Virus record (IMG/VR): IMGVR_UViG_3300023181_000014
Location: 1 to 43,109 of that record
Strand: one strand, 5' to 3'
DNA length: 43,109 nt
From: a virus
In this document: piece after piece, positions 3,864 through 40,551 of the stretch
Position numbering within the stretch: position 1 is the first letter of the stretch
Layout: every line of letters starts with the position of its first letter
Notes under the pieces: model-generated
What the model saw: the letters and a program-made list of their open reading frames with translations, nothing else
What the model was told of the DNA's origin: nothing
Databases searched by the model: none
Position numbers and translations under genes: made by a program

Positions 3864-4345
3864 CACTAGATAGCATCATCGAAAGGCTGGAGAAGGCGGA
3901 AGGCGGCGATCGGGAGCTTGATTGCTGGATTGGTTACGTTGCAGACCTGAGAGAAGACGACATGTCATGGCGCGGCAAGATCGATAAGTTTGGGATAGAC
4001 CATGCTGTCGCGGCAGCAACGGGCTATTCAAATGTGTGGCGCTCGGTCCTGCCATATTACACATCGTCCATGAACGCGGCGATCACCCTTGTTGAAACCA
4101 TGCTTCCAGGCTGGGCATGGAAGGTCGGAACATGCTGCGTATCTGATGATGCTTGGGTCACGCCTGATTTCAACAGCCCAATTCATGGCGAGCGTCTGAA
4201 GCGGGAATTCCCCGATCTCAAGGCCGGTAGCGTTTTCGATACGGGTGTTGACATTGATCTTCGCCCATCGGGACGGCCGGCCATTGCATTGTGCATTGCG
4301 GTTCTCACTGCCCTCAAAGCCAAGCAGGTGGGGGTAGGGGAATGA
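3860..4345 (+). CDS. Phage ABA sandwich domain protein
   Basis: A 161-residue protein with the pattern of the phage ABA sandwich family: an N-terminal [16 protein letters not shown], a central [14 protein letters not shown], a GW-rich strand ([11 protein letters not shown]) and a C-terminal [12 protein letters not shown] helix. The family is common in early regions of alphaproteobacterial and enterobacterial phages and has no known function. It overlaps both neighbours by ATGA, so it belongs to a tightly coupled operon. Confidence 0.8.
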
Positions 4346-29792: not shown

Positions 29793-30758
29793 TCATTTTT
29801 TGCCGAAAACCCGGTCGATCACTTCCCGGTTATTATCCCCCTCAACATACGTCTCCATGAGCAGCCGGCGCGATTTCCACCCGCCGTGGTCACCAGTCGT
29901 AGCCGCGTCCACGCCGTTGCGAACGATCATCTCTGTAGCAAAGCCATGTCTGCCAAATTCATGGCTTGTGAGACGCGATAGGCCCGCGTGCTTTATCACC
30001 TTGTCCACCCGCTTTTTGATGGTCGATCGGTTTGCAGCCGCAAAAACTAGTGTCGGGTGAAGGCTGCGAATGTTTGCCAGGTCGATGACCATGGCGCGGG
30101 TCAGGAAGACCTTTCGTGGCGTCGTCTTGGTCTTGGAGAGGAATGCGGTCCCGAGCTGCAGATTCACGTCATCCCATGTCAGCCTGCAGGCCTCAGAGAC
30201 GCGGGCAGCGGTTTCGAACATGAACCGGGCCACAGCGGCGGTCTCTGGCATGTTGAGCTTCTTTGCGGCCTTACTGAAGGCGTCAAGCCATTCCTTGCTC
30301 CCTGCTGGGCGCGAGGTGCGCTCTTCCTTGAAGCGGGTGACTTTCACAGGGTCACAATGGCCGGCATCAGCCGCGTGGTTGATGATAGCCCGCATTGGCG
30401 TCACAACCTGTCGGTTTAGCGTGGCATTGGCTGCTTTCGGGTATAGCTTCTTCGCTGCCTTACGGATCTCAAGGCCGGTGATGTCCTTCACCTTCCAATT
30501 CTTGAAATGCTTAAGGAGGGGCGCCGTGAACCGCCGATCGCGGCCATCATCAAAATAGGCTGCGACAATCTCAGGGAAGGTTAGGACCGCCTTTTCACCG
30601 TGGACAGCGGCACGACGGAGCCTCGCTTCGTGTTGATGCGCGATGTCTTCCGCGAGCCTTCTGTCGCTCGTCTTAGAAGATTTTCGAACCCGTGTTCCGT
30701 CAACGGTGAAATCATACCACCAAATTGTTCCGTCTTTTCTTGTGTAGACGTATGGCAA
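29793..30758 (-). CDS. int: Tyrosine recombinase integrase
   Basis: A 321-residue integrase counted from TTG 30758, which follows a GGAG; the frame extends to 30842 but that part lies in the excisionase gene and is not integrase-like. The N-terminal PYVYTRKDGTIWWYDF is the usual arm-binding start. Catalytic residues fit the family: Arg186 (AARVSEACRL), Lys211, His266 and Arg270 in SHEFGRHGFAT (a HxxxRH variant), Trp294 (HGGWK) and the nucleophile Tyr304 (METYVEGD). It would recombine attP at 29643-29686 with a host tRNA-Ser gene. Confidence 0.92.
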   Translation of the reverse strand: MPYVYTRKDGTIWWYDFTVDGTRVRKSSKTSDRRLAEDIAHQHEARLRRAAVHGEKAVLTFPEIVAAYFDDGRDRRFTAPLLKHFKNWKVKDITGLEIRKAAKKLYPKAANATLNRQVVTPMRAIINHAADAGHCDPVKVTRFKEERTSRPAGSKEWLDAFSKAAKKLNMPETAAVARFMFETAARVSEACRLTWDDVNLQLGTAFLSKTKTTPRKVFLTRAMVIDLANIRSLHPTLVFAAANRSTIKKRVDKVIKHAGLSRLTSHEFGRHGFATEMIVRNGVDAATTGDHGGWKSRRLLMETYVEGDNNREVIDRVFGKK

Positions 30759-30955
30759 GGTGATGGCTCCGGTTTGGCGGCATTGATGATTGTGTCTATG
30801 TCGGTGGGCAGCAAGAACATCGCTTTTCCAATGATCCTGCAAGCCCCGATCGATCGGGCTCGCTCTCGCAGTGTCCTTTCGGATATCTGGATGCCCGCCG
30901 CCTGGAGCTTGGCAACGGCCGTCGCCGGGGATATGGCTTCGTCAAGGACCGTCAT
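30581..30955 (-). CDS. Excisionase-like DNA-binding protein
   Basis: A 124-residue minus-strand gene directly before the integrase, overlapping it by about 178 nt in another frame. The N-terminal 60 residues (SPATAVAKLQAAGIQISER, TLRERARSIGACRIIGKAMF in part) form a winged-helix/HTH_17-like recombination directionality factor of the rhizobial type. The C-terminus is Ser/Thr/Lys-rich (GSRKTSRINTKRGSVV). Its start overlaps the preceding stop by ATGA. Likely Xis; the long C-terminal overlap with int is unusual but the tail reads like protein. Confidence 0.7.
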   Translation of the reverse strand: MTVLDEAISPATAVAKLQAAGIQISERTLRERARSIGACRIIGKAMFLLPTDIDTIINAAKPEPSPCHTSTQEKTEQFGGMISPLTEHGFENLLRRATEGSRKTSRINTKRGSVVPLSTVKRRS

Positions 30956-34679: not shown

Positions 34680-35330
34680 TCAGGCGTTCATGGGATGTCT
34701 GGTTGCTTCTGCGTCGGAAACCGGCATCAGCTCTTGCTTCCGAAAGTCCTTGGCCTTGATGACGCCAATCTCGACCTGCGGGGCTTCATTCTTCAGGCGC
34801 TTGATAACGTCGGCCTCTTGGGTCCAGATCGAGCCCAGATCATCCAATGTCTTAGCCTTGGTCATTCTGCCGATGATCCGGTCACCAGCTGCTACAGGGT
34901 TGAACGGGGGGACATGCGCATCGGCGGGGGAATACGCGATGCTTTCGGTATCGGGGTCATCGCCGGTCTCTAGGCCAAGAGCCTTGAGGAGCGCGTATTT
35001 CACGGCATAAGACATTGCCTTGCCGGGGCCCTTGTCCTGCGGGTCGATGCCGTATCCAAATGTTGGAACATCGAAGAAATCGGCGGGCTCATCCACATTG
35101 ACGAACCGAACAGTCAGAGAGCATTCGGCGCGGTTGCCGTTGTGGAGGTGTTCGCAACGAACCGGATAGTAAACGATCCCATTCTTCAGCAGCACAGGCC
35201 GGACCTTGGCGGTTACAGCATCGTGCGAGACGATGGTGTAATTCATGCCCTGCTTCTTTTCCTTCTGGATGTAGTCAACTTCCAGCATTGCCGCAGCAAG
35301 GCGCTGGTGAACGTTCTTCTTGTCTGTCAT
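34680..35330 (-). CDS. erf: ERF family single-strand annealing protein
   Basis: A 216-residue recombinase. Tandem starts GTG 35333 and ATG 35330 follow GAGG; ATG is taken. The core has the ERF pattern: NVHQRLAAAMLEVDYIQKE, YTIVSHDAVTAKVRPVLLKN in part, CSLTVRFVN, GYGIDPQDKGPGKAMSYAVK and YALLKALGLETGDDPD. ERF proteins anneal complementary single strands and help circularise or recombine phage DNA. The C-terminus after 150 is variable. It lies between Gp157 and the SSB-like gene, a normal recombination cluster. Confidence 0.92.
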   Translation of the reverse strand: MTDKKNVHQRLAAAMLEVDYIQKEKKQGMNYTIVSHDAVTAKVRPVLLKNGIVYYPVRCEHLHNGNRAECSLTVRFVNVDEPADFFDVPTFGYGIDPQDKGPGKAMSYAVKYALLKALGLETGDDPDTESIAYSPADAHVPPFNPVAAGDRIIGRMTKAKTLDDLGSIWTQEADVIKRLKNEAPQVEIGVIKAKDFRKQELMPVSDAEATRHPMNA

Positions 35331-35845
35331 CACTTTGTCCTCACCATCAAGCCACAGTCTCCCATGACGATTTCAGCGCCGGGGGGGATATGCCCTCCGT
35401 CTTTGAATGCTTCCAGAATTGCCTTCTTGTCGGCCTTCCGTTCGGTCTTGAAAAAGCCTTGAGGCAGTTGGTCCACGTCGAAGACATTCACGCCCTCACG
35501 CGCCTTCGTGATCGATAGCGTGGCCTCGGGGAGTGTAACCTTGTCTTGGCCTGCGCTTTCCATAAGCATCTGCATGATCTTTTTGATGCCGTCAGCCTGG
35601 CGCTCGTAGCGGGACCGGCGCTCGCTCAAGGCGTCTTCTCGGGTCTTGATGGCGTCAACCATCATCAAAGCTTCCTGACGCGCTCCCAGAGCCCGCTCAA
35701 GGATGCGGTGGAGATCCGTGCTGCCTTCGATCATGTCGGCCATCAGATCGGCGTCGTCTGCCAAATCAGGGTAGTTGATGAGCATGGCGCTGATCTGGGC
35801 GCGTACGGCCTGAGCGTCGTTAAACAGGAACTTGGCGATTGTCAT
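35330..35845 (-). CDS. Gp157-family (Siphovirus Gp157) protein
   Basis: A 171-residue protein from ATG 35845, after AAGGAAA. The long helical N-terminus, then MMVDAIKTREDALSERRSRYE in part, and the C-terminal LPEATLSITKAREGVNVFD and KADKKAILEAFKDGG follow the Gp157 family found beside ERF or RecT genes in many phages. The role is unknown; a link to recombination or to resistance against host defence has been proposed for the family. GTGA overlap with the ERF gene. Confidence 0.85.
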   Translation of the reverse strand: MTIAKFLFNDAQAVRAQISAMLINYPDLADDADLMADMIEGSTDLHRILERALGARQEALMMVDAIKTREDALSERRSRYERQADGIKKIMQMLMESAGQDKVTLPEATLSITKAREGVNVFDVDQLPQGFFKTERKADKKAILEAFKDGGHIPPGAEIVMGDCGLMVRTK

Positions 35846-36014
35846 TGCTGATTTCCTTCTCTCTGGAGCGCCAGAACTCAACCTGTTTCCGGCAGGCTTC
35901 CAAATGGTCTTGAGCTATCTTGAATTGTTCGGCGGTACGGGCTCTTGAGCGGTCTCTCTTCCAGCCCTGCGCGCTGAATATGAAAATTTCTCGCATCTGG
36001 GTTACTGTGGTCAT
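35820..36014 (-). CDS. Small helical hypothetical protein
   Basis: A 64-residue protein starting MTTVTQMREIFIF at ATG 36014, overlapping the preceding stop. The bulk is basic helix (RSRARTAEQFKIAQDHLEAC in part, QVEFWRSREKEI). It overlaps the Gp157 gene by 26 nt. No known domain. Confidence 0.6.
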   Translation of the reverse strand: MTTVTQMREIFIFSAQGWKRDRSRARTAEQFKIAQDHLEACRKQVEFWRSREKEISNDNRQVPV

Positions 36015-38446: not shown

Positions 38447-38752
38447 TTATTTGTTCTGGCGAGTTTCGAGCAGACCTAACAGGTGCTCTTTCTCTTTGTC
38501 GGACATACCCGCCACGATCTTCAGAAATTCTTCATCCTGCCGAGACATTTCCACGCCCGTAAATATATAAGCCAGGCTGATCTCTAAAACTTCTGCCAGC
38601 TTGACTACCCTGTCAGTGCTGGGCGCTTTTTCGCCAGCTAGCAGTTCACTCACAAAATTGGTTCCGAACCCGCATTCGCGTGCGATTTCGCGACGGGAAC
38701 GACCGTCTTTCTCAATTGCATCTGTGAGTCTGGTTCGCCAATCGGTAGCCAT
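38447..38752 (-). CDS. XRE-family phage repressor (short CI-like)
   Basis: A 101-residue protein. Residues about 18-65 form an XRE helix-turn-helix (SRREIARECGFGTNFVSELL, then LAEVLEISLAYIFTG). The C-terminal 35 residues (EEFLKIVAGMSDKEKEHLLG in part) are helical, with no S24 LexA-like peptidase domain, so RecA-mediated self-cleavage is not expected. It is divergent from the Cro-like gene and leftward of the rightward promoter. It is the probable lysogeny repressor binding CGCAAAAGCGTGC. No ribosome-binding site is seen before the ATG. Confidence 0.85.
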   Translation of the reverse strand: MATDWRTRLTDAIEKDGRSRREIARECGFGTNFVSELLAGEKAPSTDRVVKLAEVLEISLAYIFTGVEMSRQDEEFLKIVAGMSDKEKEHLLGLLETRQNK

Positions 38753-38838: not shown

Positions 38839-39054
38839 ATGCAAACGAACCTTCTCACAGACATCGAAGCCTTCCTTGCTGAAACAGGCATGAGCGAACC
38901 GAACTTCTGTAGGTCAGTCGGCAATGGCCGATTGTTCGAGCGGCTTCGCAGTGTCGGCGTCAGGGGGAAGTCTGGGCGAGTATGGCCCGAAACCGAAGCT
39001 GAAATCCGCGCTTTCATGATCGCCCATCGGCGCATGGAAAAGGCGTCTGCGTAA
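38839..39054 (+). CDS. Cro-like regulator, probably leaderless
   Basis: A 71-residue protein starting MQTNLLTDIEAFLAETGM. It has the pattern of short rhizobial phage Cro-like proteins (DIEAFLAETGMSEPNFCRSV, then RVWPETEAEIRAFM). The ATG lies 7 bases after the -10 ATAATA and has no Shine-Dalgarno sequence, so the mRNA is predicted to start at the ATG. It is divergent from the repressor and first in the rightward operon. Probably represses early promoters and opposes the repressor. Confidence 0.75.
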   Translation: MQTNLLTDIEAFLAETGMSEPNFCRSVGNGRLFERLRSVGVRGKSGRVWPETEAEIRAFMIAHRRMEKASA

Positions 39055-39983
39055 TGAGCGGCCGCTCTTCCTCACCCGGAGGTGTGTTCGCCGTATCGAG
39101 GGGGATTTTTGAAGATCCTGATTTTCCCCCTGAGCCATTCACACAGCGAGAGGCCTTTATCTGGCTGGTCGCAAGTGCGGCATGGAAGGAACACAAAACA
39201 CGAGGTTCTTTTGGGCCGGTAATTTTGGAACGAGGCGAATTTTGCTTCTCTGTCAGGTTCTTAGCTGAGCGTTGGAAATGGTCAAAATCGCGCGTCGATC
39301 GCTTCATTTTGGCGCTGAAAAAGCGGGACACAATACGGGACAGCAAGCGGGACAGAGAGCAAGTCTGGATTATCAATAAATACAATGACTTCCAGATACT
39401 GGCCGCACCAAAGAGGGACAGCAAGCGGGACACGAAGAGGGACAGCAGCGGGACAGCAGCGGGACAGCAGCGGGACAAAGAAGAAGACATTGAAGACATT
39501 GAAGACATTGAAAGCTCCTCACTACGTTCGGAGAGGTTTGGCCCCGACGAGGCGTTTTCTGAGTTTTGTGAAGTGGTCGGAAAGGCAGGGTTCAATCTTC
39601 CCAAGCTCCTTACCAAGGACAGACGGGAGAAGCTCAAAGCCAGACTGGCTGAGCACGGCAGAGAGGCATGGGCCGAAGCCGTGAGGCGGATGGCGGCTAG
39701 CAAGTTCTGCCGGGGTGAGAATGAGAGGGGTTGGAAGGCTGACCTGGATTTCGTCCTTCAGTCTAAATCCTTCAACGGTCTTATCGAAGGCAAGTACGAC
39801 GACAAAATACCGGTGCTGAAGCCTGCCCCCAAGACGGCTTTCCAGCAACACCAAGACGAATGTGCAGCTGAACTCGACAAAGTAATCAACAGGAGCCGAG
39901 GGAATGACGAATTCACTGACAACATCATCGACCTTGCAGCGACAGATTTCCGTGGCCACGGCAAGGCTGACTCCGGCCGGTGA
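39054..39983 (+). CDS. Replication initiator-like protein with internal iterons
   Basis: A 309-residue protein, TAATG-coupled to the Cro-like gene. The N-terminal 100 residues (REAFIWLVASAAWKEH, GEFCFSVRFLAERWKWSKSR, VDRFILALKKRDTI) are a winged-helix of the phage replication initiator type. The middle is low complexity, KRDSKRDTKRDSSG and EEDIEDIEDIESS, caused by DNA repeats (iterons). The C-terminal part is a helical domain that ends in FVLQSKSFNGLIEGKYD, a common initiator ending. It would bind its own gene to open the origin, as lambda O does. Confidence 0.8.
   Translation: MSGRSSSPGGVFAVSRGIFEDPDFPPEPFTQREAFIWLVASAAWKEHKTRGSFGPVILERGEFCFSVRFLAERWKWSKSRVDRFILALKKRDTIRDSKRDREQVWIINKYNDFQILAAPKRDSKRDTKRDSSGTAAGQQRDKEEDIEDIEDIESSSLRSERFGPDEAFSEFCEVVGKAGFNLPKLLTKDRREKLKARLAEHGREAWAEAVRRMAASKFCRGENERGWKADLDFVLQSKSFNGLIEGKYDDKIPVLKPAPKTAFQQHQDECAAELDKVINRSRGNDEFTDNIIDLAATDFRGHGKADSGR
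39325..39477 (+). repeat. GGGACA iterons, probable replication origin
   Basis: Nine copies of GGGACA lie in two groups. Group A starts at 39325, 39337 and 39349 (12-base steps). Group B starts at 39415, 39427, 39439, 39450, 39461 and 39472 (12 then 11-base steps). The 60 bases between include an AT-rich piece near 39370-39390. Near helical-turn spacing and location in the initiator gene are typical of a theta origin. Confidence in the repeat is high; the origin function is inference. Confidence 0.8.
39486..39512 (+). repeat. Three tandem 9-bp repeats
   Basis: GACATTGAA occurs three times in a row at 39486-39512, directly behind the last iteron, encoding the acidic DIEDIEDIE. It could be part of the unwinding region of the origin or simply a replication-slippage product. 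The composition is AT-richer than the iterons. Confidence 0.85.
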
Positions 39984-40551
39984 GGATGGAGTAGCTAAAG
40001 CGCTTCGGACGCTGCAGACGGGCGGTCTGGCTCTATCAAGCAACATCAAGGCCAAGGATATGAACACTGTTTATTCCTATGCACTTTCGGGGCTGTCGAG
40101 TGATGCTCTGACGATTGCCTGCAAAAAGCTTGTTCGAGGCGAATACGATATCGAGCGCAAGTCTATTATCCCTCTCCCCCCTGAGCTGGCTGCGATGGTT
40201 CGCGCCGAACAACGGTTGATCAGCGACGATCTGGCCAGAGCCCGCGCTACTATGGACTCGATGCAGCCAGCACCGGTTGTTGAGCGTTCGGTAGAGGCCC
40301 AAGCCCGCGTCAAAGCCCTTCGCCTTGGCTTCCTGAATGAGATCCAGGAATACAAACAGCGTAACGGCCTTACCCCTACGCCAGATGAATTCAACGATGA
40401 GAAGGCGGCATACTTCGAGCGCATCATGGCACTCAAAGACGCTCCCGTCATCACAGCCGAACAGATGGTTGAGCGCAACAAACGCTCCCTGCAGATCGCC
40501 AATTCCAACCTTTCCTCCTTCGAGGATACCAAATTAGAGGCACACAACTGA
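39904..40551 (+). CDS. Replication-associated hypothetical protein
   Basis: A 215-residue mostly helical protein that overlaps the initiator gene by 80 nt in another frame; GGAG lies 8 nt before the ATG. Segments VYSYALSGLSSDALTIACKK in part, LVRGEYDIERKSIIPLPPEL and a long C-terminal helix recall proteins that follow phage initiators. The location corresponds to lambda P-type helicase loaders, but no loader motif is visible. TGATG-coupled to the next gene. Confidence 0.65.
   Translation: MTNSLTTSSTLQRQISVATARLTPAGEDGVAKALRTLQTGGLALSSNIKAKDMNTVYSYALSGLSSDALTIACKKLVRGEYDIERKSIIPLPPELAAMVRAEQRLISDDLARARATMDSMQPAPVVERSVEAQARVKALRLGFLNEIQEYKQRNGLTPTPDEFNDEKAAYFERIMALKDAPVITAEQMVERNKRSLQIANSNLSSFEDTKLEAHN

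Follow-up and report, generated by a model that had tools for sequence, protein, structure and literature searches.

The O protein of phage lambda binds DNA through its N-terminal part and contacts its partner through its C-terminal part. In its origin, ori-lambda, the iterons and the AT-rich unwinding region behind them both lie within the initiator gene (PMC6022878). Gene 18 of Salmonella phage L and gene 18 of P22 encode initiators with different repeats in their own genes; phage L has six imprecise repeats of the 11-bp unit TGTCCAACGGA, and the study inferred that different iterons are bound but did not give a code linking residues to bases (PMC8022706). That origins lie within phage genes and use phage-specific iterons is established in the case of lambda and has been inferred for P22 and L (PMC6022878, PMC8022706), so the kind of element described here is already known. 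We analysed a viral DNA of 43,109 nucleotides (IMG/VR record IMGVR_UViG_3300023181_000014; hereafter the window), in which an array of GGGACA repeats lies inside the gene of a winged-helix initiator-like protein (39054–39983, plus strand). Judged from sequence patterns in this gene and its homologues, positions 39324–39520 are very likely a phage replication origin of lambda type, set inside the gene of its own initiator and built of 7-bp sites one helical turn apart.

The initial annotation had likened the locus to lambda O/ori, and the likeness holds for the layout but not for the type of site. As in lambda, the array is within the initiator coding sequence and an AT-rich segment adjoins the iterons within the gene. 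Whereas lambda has dyad iterons of ~18 bp that are bound by dimers, the window has nine asymmetric 7-bp direct sites at steps of 11–12 bp, in two groups; no inverted repeats were found in 39000–39900, and the array lacks the dyad-symmetric iterons of the lambda O family proper. The C-terminal domain also differs from that of lambda O in being DnaD-like. Phage L shares the pitch of the window array, but its 11-bp unit is no match to CGNNNCA in our register. DnaD-like phage helicase loaders and replisome organizers (phrog_2514, phrog_186, phrog_10469) are not annotated as origin-bearing in the records compared. The same array layout is found in SUAG_00025 of Sulfitobacter phage pCB2047-A (36% identity over 89% of the protein), with CGGGACA at spacings of 11, 12, 66, 22, 11, 11 and 11; this gene is annotated as encoding a hypothetical protein, and its units stand in codon phases partly different from those in the window.

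A helically phased array within the initiator gene

Nine GGGACA units, all on the plus strand, start at 39325, 39337 and 39349 and, after a gap, at 39415, 39427, 39439, 39450, 39461 and 39472 (span 39325–39477), giving steps of 12, 12, 66, 12, 12, 11, 11 and 11 bp. A unit of 7 bp describes the repeats better: CGGGACA is present in seven of the nine cases and AGGGACA in the other two (39414 and 39438). Ten further copies of GGGACA are dispersed across the window outside the array, and no second array comparable to this one was found in the window; the Poisson chance of the cluster is ~1e-16 per site. With a pitch of 11–12 bp and gaps of 22–24 and 66 bp, the sites stay on one face of the helix whatever the reading frame.

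Iteron group 1 (39324–39354; three CGGGACA at 12-bp steps) encodes residues 91–101 and is followed by an AT-rich spacer (39355–39413) that spans 66 bp from unit to unit, or six helical turns. Iteron group 2 (39414–39477) holds six (C/A)GGGACA units at steps of 12, 12, 11, 11 and 11 bp. Downstream of the last iteron is an AT- and purine-rich segment (39478–39520), a candidate unwinding element, with three exact copies of the 9-bp repeat GACATTGAA within 39483–39512. The GC content is 0.32 at 39360–39400 and 0.42 over the whole spacer, and 0.37 in the segment after the array; 50-bp windows in both AT-rich segments are among the lowest 1–2% in GC of the whole window. These coordinates and base compositions agree with the initial annotation, which had reported the nine units in two groups with an AT-rich segment between them, the three 9-bp repeats behind them, and odd protein segments (KRDSKRD, DIEDIEDIE) where the repeats are translated. 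The product of the open reading frame 39054–39983 indeed contains KRDTIRDSKRD, KRDSKRDTKRDSSGTAAGQQRD and EDIEDIEDIE.

Units 1–6 share one codon phase, and the last units pass through all three, being read as RD, GT and GQ. When the protein was kept and its codons were redrawn from the usage of the window, GGGACA occurred 0.68 times on average and at most five times in 20,000 trials, compared with nine observed; with the biased usage of the gene itself, the mean was 2.25 and the maximum seven.

Conservation of the array among homologues

Peptide patterns from the full-length protein were too specific and yielded nearly no homologues; a motif scan was then used, followed by a motif-independent search of IMG/VR with an alignment of only the domain that precedes the arrays, widened by two subfamily alignments. 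Pooling the domain-found and motif-found loci gave 126 distinct sequences. A clear CG-NNN-CA array stands at the same place in 113 of them (median seven units), and 108 of these 113 arrays span more than one codon phase. The median array score was 9, compared with 1 after permutation of synonymous codons, which leaves the proteins intact, and 0 after shuffling of codon order. Minus-strand scores of at least 5 were obtained in 21 of the 126 genes; we read them as shadows of the repeated units, permitted by one mismatch.

We also chose the unit by copy number alone, ignoring spacing. The triplet came out unchanged in 87 of 90 genes, with spacings of 11 bp in 192 and 12 bp in 49 of 418 cases and none at 9, 10 or 13 bp. 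The commonest long gap among the homologues is 66 bp, as in the window (59 cases). The reading frame and the encoded residues change while the array stays in place, so that selection acts on the DNA rather than on the protein, and the proposal of the initial annotation that a DNA function constrains the protein is upheld by this comparison.

Raw motif matches alone are weak proof, as a control scan with another hexamer (GACGAG) also gave many matches; among the matches listed, most had 12-bp steps that fit in-frame protein repeats. That scan also found a distant relative of the initiator (L299) with a different core at spacings of 66, 11 and 11 bp. Intragenic arrays with steps of 11–12 bp and other cores occur in distant named relatives, namely Bacillus phage Page (CACAGA seven times, 11-bp steps), Staphylococcus phage phi575 (11-bp steps) and Bacteroides BS-TP2, suggesting that a large part of the DnaD-like phage initiators probably shares this design.

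Co-variation of the triplet and the recognition helix

The core CG-NNN-CA carries 16 different triplets among the 113 arrays: GGA in 44 genes, ACG in 29, AGA in 10, ATA in eight and twelve further kinds. In a divergent subfamily (L456 and L460), AACGCA units recur at 11 bp, so that the G of the otherwise constant CG can change too.

We calculated the mutual information between the triplet and each column of the domain after collapsing near-identical sequences, which left 77. The signal peaked at two positions of the recognition helix (residues 78–90 in the structure model; 39285–39323), p2 (K78 in the window; z 13.9) and p5 (D82; z 12.3–13.1), while the median column had a z of 0.24. They were followed by a column of the preceding helix (z 7.3) and by p3 (S79; z 6.3), and by this measure K78, S79 and D82 are the specificity residues. 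The signal was the same when the arrays were called anew solely from DNA beyond the helix. At p2, K goes with a middle G in 33 of 34 cases, E with C in 16 of 16 and R with G in seven of eight, and L, V, A and P go mostly with T; at p5, R goes with C in 24 of 25 cases, and D or E with G in 25 of 25.

Shared ancestry was controlled for in three ways. Among pairs with the same triplet, p2 was identical in 73–91%, versus 13–22% otherwise, in each well-filled band of identity in the rest of the domain (0.2–0.7). Independent contrasts were taken as pairs on disjoint paths of a tree built without the helix, on the best version of which the triplet needs at least 41 changes. Counted on this best tree only, middle G changed with K or R at p2 in the same direction in 16 pairs and in the opposite direction in none (one tie); the counts were 15, 0 and one tie for middle C with R at p5, and 13, 0 and two ties for third G with E or D at p2. 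The best of 55 control columns gave ten same and one opposite. Finally, with training sets stripped of sequences more than 45–60% identical outside the helix, the helix residues predicted the triplet in 78% of cases, compared with 21–24% when the triplet was taken from the sequence most similar in the rest of the domain, which is no better than guessing the commonest triplet.

This co-variation is strong indirect evidence that the initiator very probably binds the repeats, the point on which the initial annotation had made its reading depend. On balance we favour a recognition code in which p2, p3 and p5 would determine the triplet in CG-NNN-CA, making the origin largely predictable from the protein and vice versa. 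Under such a code, specificity would have switched many times, typically with five to nine sites rewritten per switch and in all three frames. The helix and its sites lie within ~200 bp, so that lock and key may travel jointly as one recombination cassette.

AT-rich flanks of the array

Over the 113 genes, AT content peaked at 0.66 in the gap and at 0.64 20–40 bp past the start of the last unit, compared with 0.43 in the genes. The third positions of four- and six-fold degenerate codons were A or T in 0.60 of cases after the array, 0.46 in the gap and 0.35 elsewhere, and glutamate was encoded by GAA in 0.88 of cases after the array versus 0.44 elsewhere. The AT-richness is therefore due in part to selection at the DNA level. 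The 9-bp GACATTGAA repeats of the window are one form of this conserved segment; in a relative (L144), a comparable AAGAAGACATTAAAGGCATTGAAGGCATTA is found.

The initiator protein and its genomic context

The initiator gene encodes 309 amino acids with an N-terminal winged helix, a linker and a C-terminal DnaD-like helical domain. The initial annotation had called the product a winged-helix initiator-like protein, and profile matches and predicted structure both support this. The product matches phrog_35955 (E 3e-35), a family of unknown function, as well as DnaD-like helicase-loader families and O-like initiator families. The DnaD-like matches (phrog_2514, phrog_186, phrog_10469) extend over the winged helix and the C-terminal domain, and phrog_2514 was matched by all 48 aligned family members. 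The O-like phrog_345 matches the window protein over residues 61–251 (E 1.6e-12) and few other family members. No Pfam or NCBIfam model matched the product in a profile search.

The winged-helix domain (residues 16–107; 39099–39374) was modelled with a predicted local distance difference test score of ~95 over most of residues 30–110, with wing strands predicted at residues 94–99 and 102–107. The nearest solved folds are winged helices of the CRP/NtcA type, at a middling Z of 7.9; the Protein Data Bank (PDB) matches are generic winged helices, and no solved structure convincingly related by sequence to the initiator was found. In a by-eye alignment, which we take as a lead and not as a test, the base-contacting Arg180, Glu181 and Arg185 of CRP presumably fall on K78, S79 and the invariant R83. 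The C-terminal domain (39531–39980), which presumably contacts the helicase or its loader, matches the DnaD-like phrog_10469 over residues 145–251. Its model had weak matches in the PDB, where DnaD tops the list at a Z of just 4.4, and among predicted viral folds it comes closest to replication initiators and replisome organizers.

Placed on the model, the DNA element lies where the protein is most tolerant: iteron group 1 encodes the first wing strand and the wing tip, and group 2 a linker of low confidence, probably disordered. The predicted second wing strand (WIINKYNDFQ), which is conserved, is encoded by the spacer between the groups and is spared.

A divergent gene for a repressor of the Xre/CI type lies upstream on the minus strand (38447–38752; HTH_3 E 6e-9, Phage_CI_repr), marking an immunity region; such a divergent CI-type repressor gene is usual in the immunity and replication region of phages. 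The next gene downstream (39904–40551, plus strand; phrog_33461) overlaps the initiator gene. The window also encodes terminase, portal, capsid and amidase proteins and an integrase (29793–30842), indicating a temperate phage, and its DNA has weak matches to Agrobacterium and Ochrobactrum phages. Near the integrase, on the minus strand and thus opposite to the initiator operon, 34680–35881 holds an ERF-type single-strand annealing gene and a Gp157/Gam-like gene.

Other GGGACA arrays

Arrays of GGGACA also occur in further initiator-like genes without detectable match to the winged-helix domain (L105, L036, L023, L018, L101 and L038), of which L105 has 14 units at 4080–4243, with mixed 11- and 12-bp steps and in all three frames. 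A non-coding class was seen on other IMG/VR contigs (L007, 3379–3465; similarly L008, L013, L017, L020 and L025), where GGTGTCCCTGAGGGACACCATAGGGACACCATA... has spacings of 11, 11, 55 and 9 bp near CTATATAGAT boxes; it is possibly an intergenic origin or a regulatory site. An unrelated family (L016, L041, L065, L123 and others) has long SVRDSVWDSVGDSV tetrapeptide repeats, in which GGGACA recurs at intervals divisible by 12 bp and always in one frame; this repeat at the protein level served for contrast.

Discussion

In the mechanism that we propose for an origin at 39324–39520, winged helices would bind the 7-bp CGGGACA sites as monomers, head-to-tail and one per helical turn, with K78, S79 and D82 of the recognition helix reading the bases that match the middle triplet GGA. 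The three and six sites would align on one face of the DNA, on either side of the AT-rich spacer of six turns. The assembled array would open the AT-rich DNA after the last site, and the DnaD-like C-terminal domains would bring the replicative helicase or its loader; in the relatives SL25, EH-TP1 and phiSP119-2, the next gene encodes a DnaC-like loader or a replicative helicase. We infer physical binding, monomeric stoichiometry, unwinding and the start of replication at the array.

Several points weigh against this reading. GC skew, which the initial annotation had put forward as a check, has no turn at the array and gives no support to an origin. No helicase loader was recognised next to the initiator gene in a profile scan of the window, the next gene matching phrog_33461. 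The tree used for the contrasts has low branch support, and its well-supported branches leave 1–4 pairs, too few to test alone. The array could also serve autoregulation, besides or in place of replication.

The last point leads to the view that the array serves as an operator or for copy control, with the protein binding its own gene for transcription control or self-titration while replication starts elsewhere. The co-variation fits this as well, as it bears on whether the sites are read by the protein, which is very likely, and not on the consequence. However, the sites are ~270–420 bp inside the gene rather than at a promoter, the AT-rich segment behind them is conserved and biased to A/T in its synonymous codons, and the C-terminal parts resemble families of helicase loaders and initiators, and we consider a purely regulatory site unlikely. 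A centromere-like partition site bound by a TubR-like winged helix is suggested by the presence of TubR among weak Foldseek matches of the winged-helix domain. We regard it as very improbable, given that a scan of neighbouring genes revealed none for a partition motor, that the C-terminal domain is DnaD-like and that relatives adjoin DnaC or helicase genes.

The repeats might also belong to the protein, with a low-complexity linker expanded by slippage and GGGACA as a mere codon echo of its KRDS repeats. Six of the nine units do share one codon phase, and the 12-bp GGGACA repeats of the unrelated family do encode SVRDSVWD in frame. Nevertheless, the use of all three phases in the window and of more than one in nearly all arrays of the family, the loss of the arrays on synonymous permutation and the tracking of the recognition helix by the triplet make this account extremely improbable; the codon-phase, synonymous resampling and permutation tests rule it out as the explanation of the array.

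We return to the origin and its putative code. A literature search, which covered part of the literature, turned up neither a helix-to-triplet code over more than a hundred members nor helical phasing across all reading frames, and both features appear to be new. Through this analysis a plausible repeat array becomes a testable origin-recognition system with natural variants, and a clear example of a helically phased DNA element that a coding sequence carries through all three reading frames. As the middle base is predicted almost without exception by one residue position, the natural members lend themselves to comparative study of binding specificity, of compatibility in phage replication and of how overlapping functions of protein and DNA evolve. 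A joint cassette of helix and sites, if true, would give a reason for the origin to be inside the gene and would imply replication incompatibility groups among phages. The likely replication origins of uncultured phages, which are mostly unknown, may be located from the initiator gene alone.
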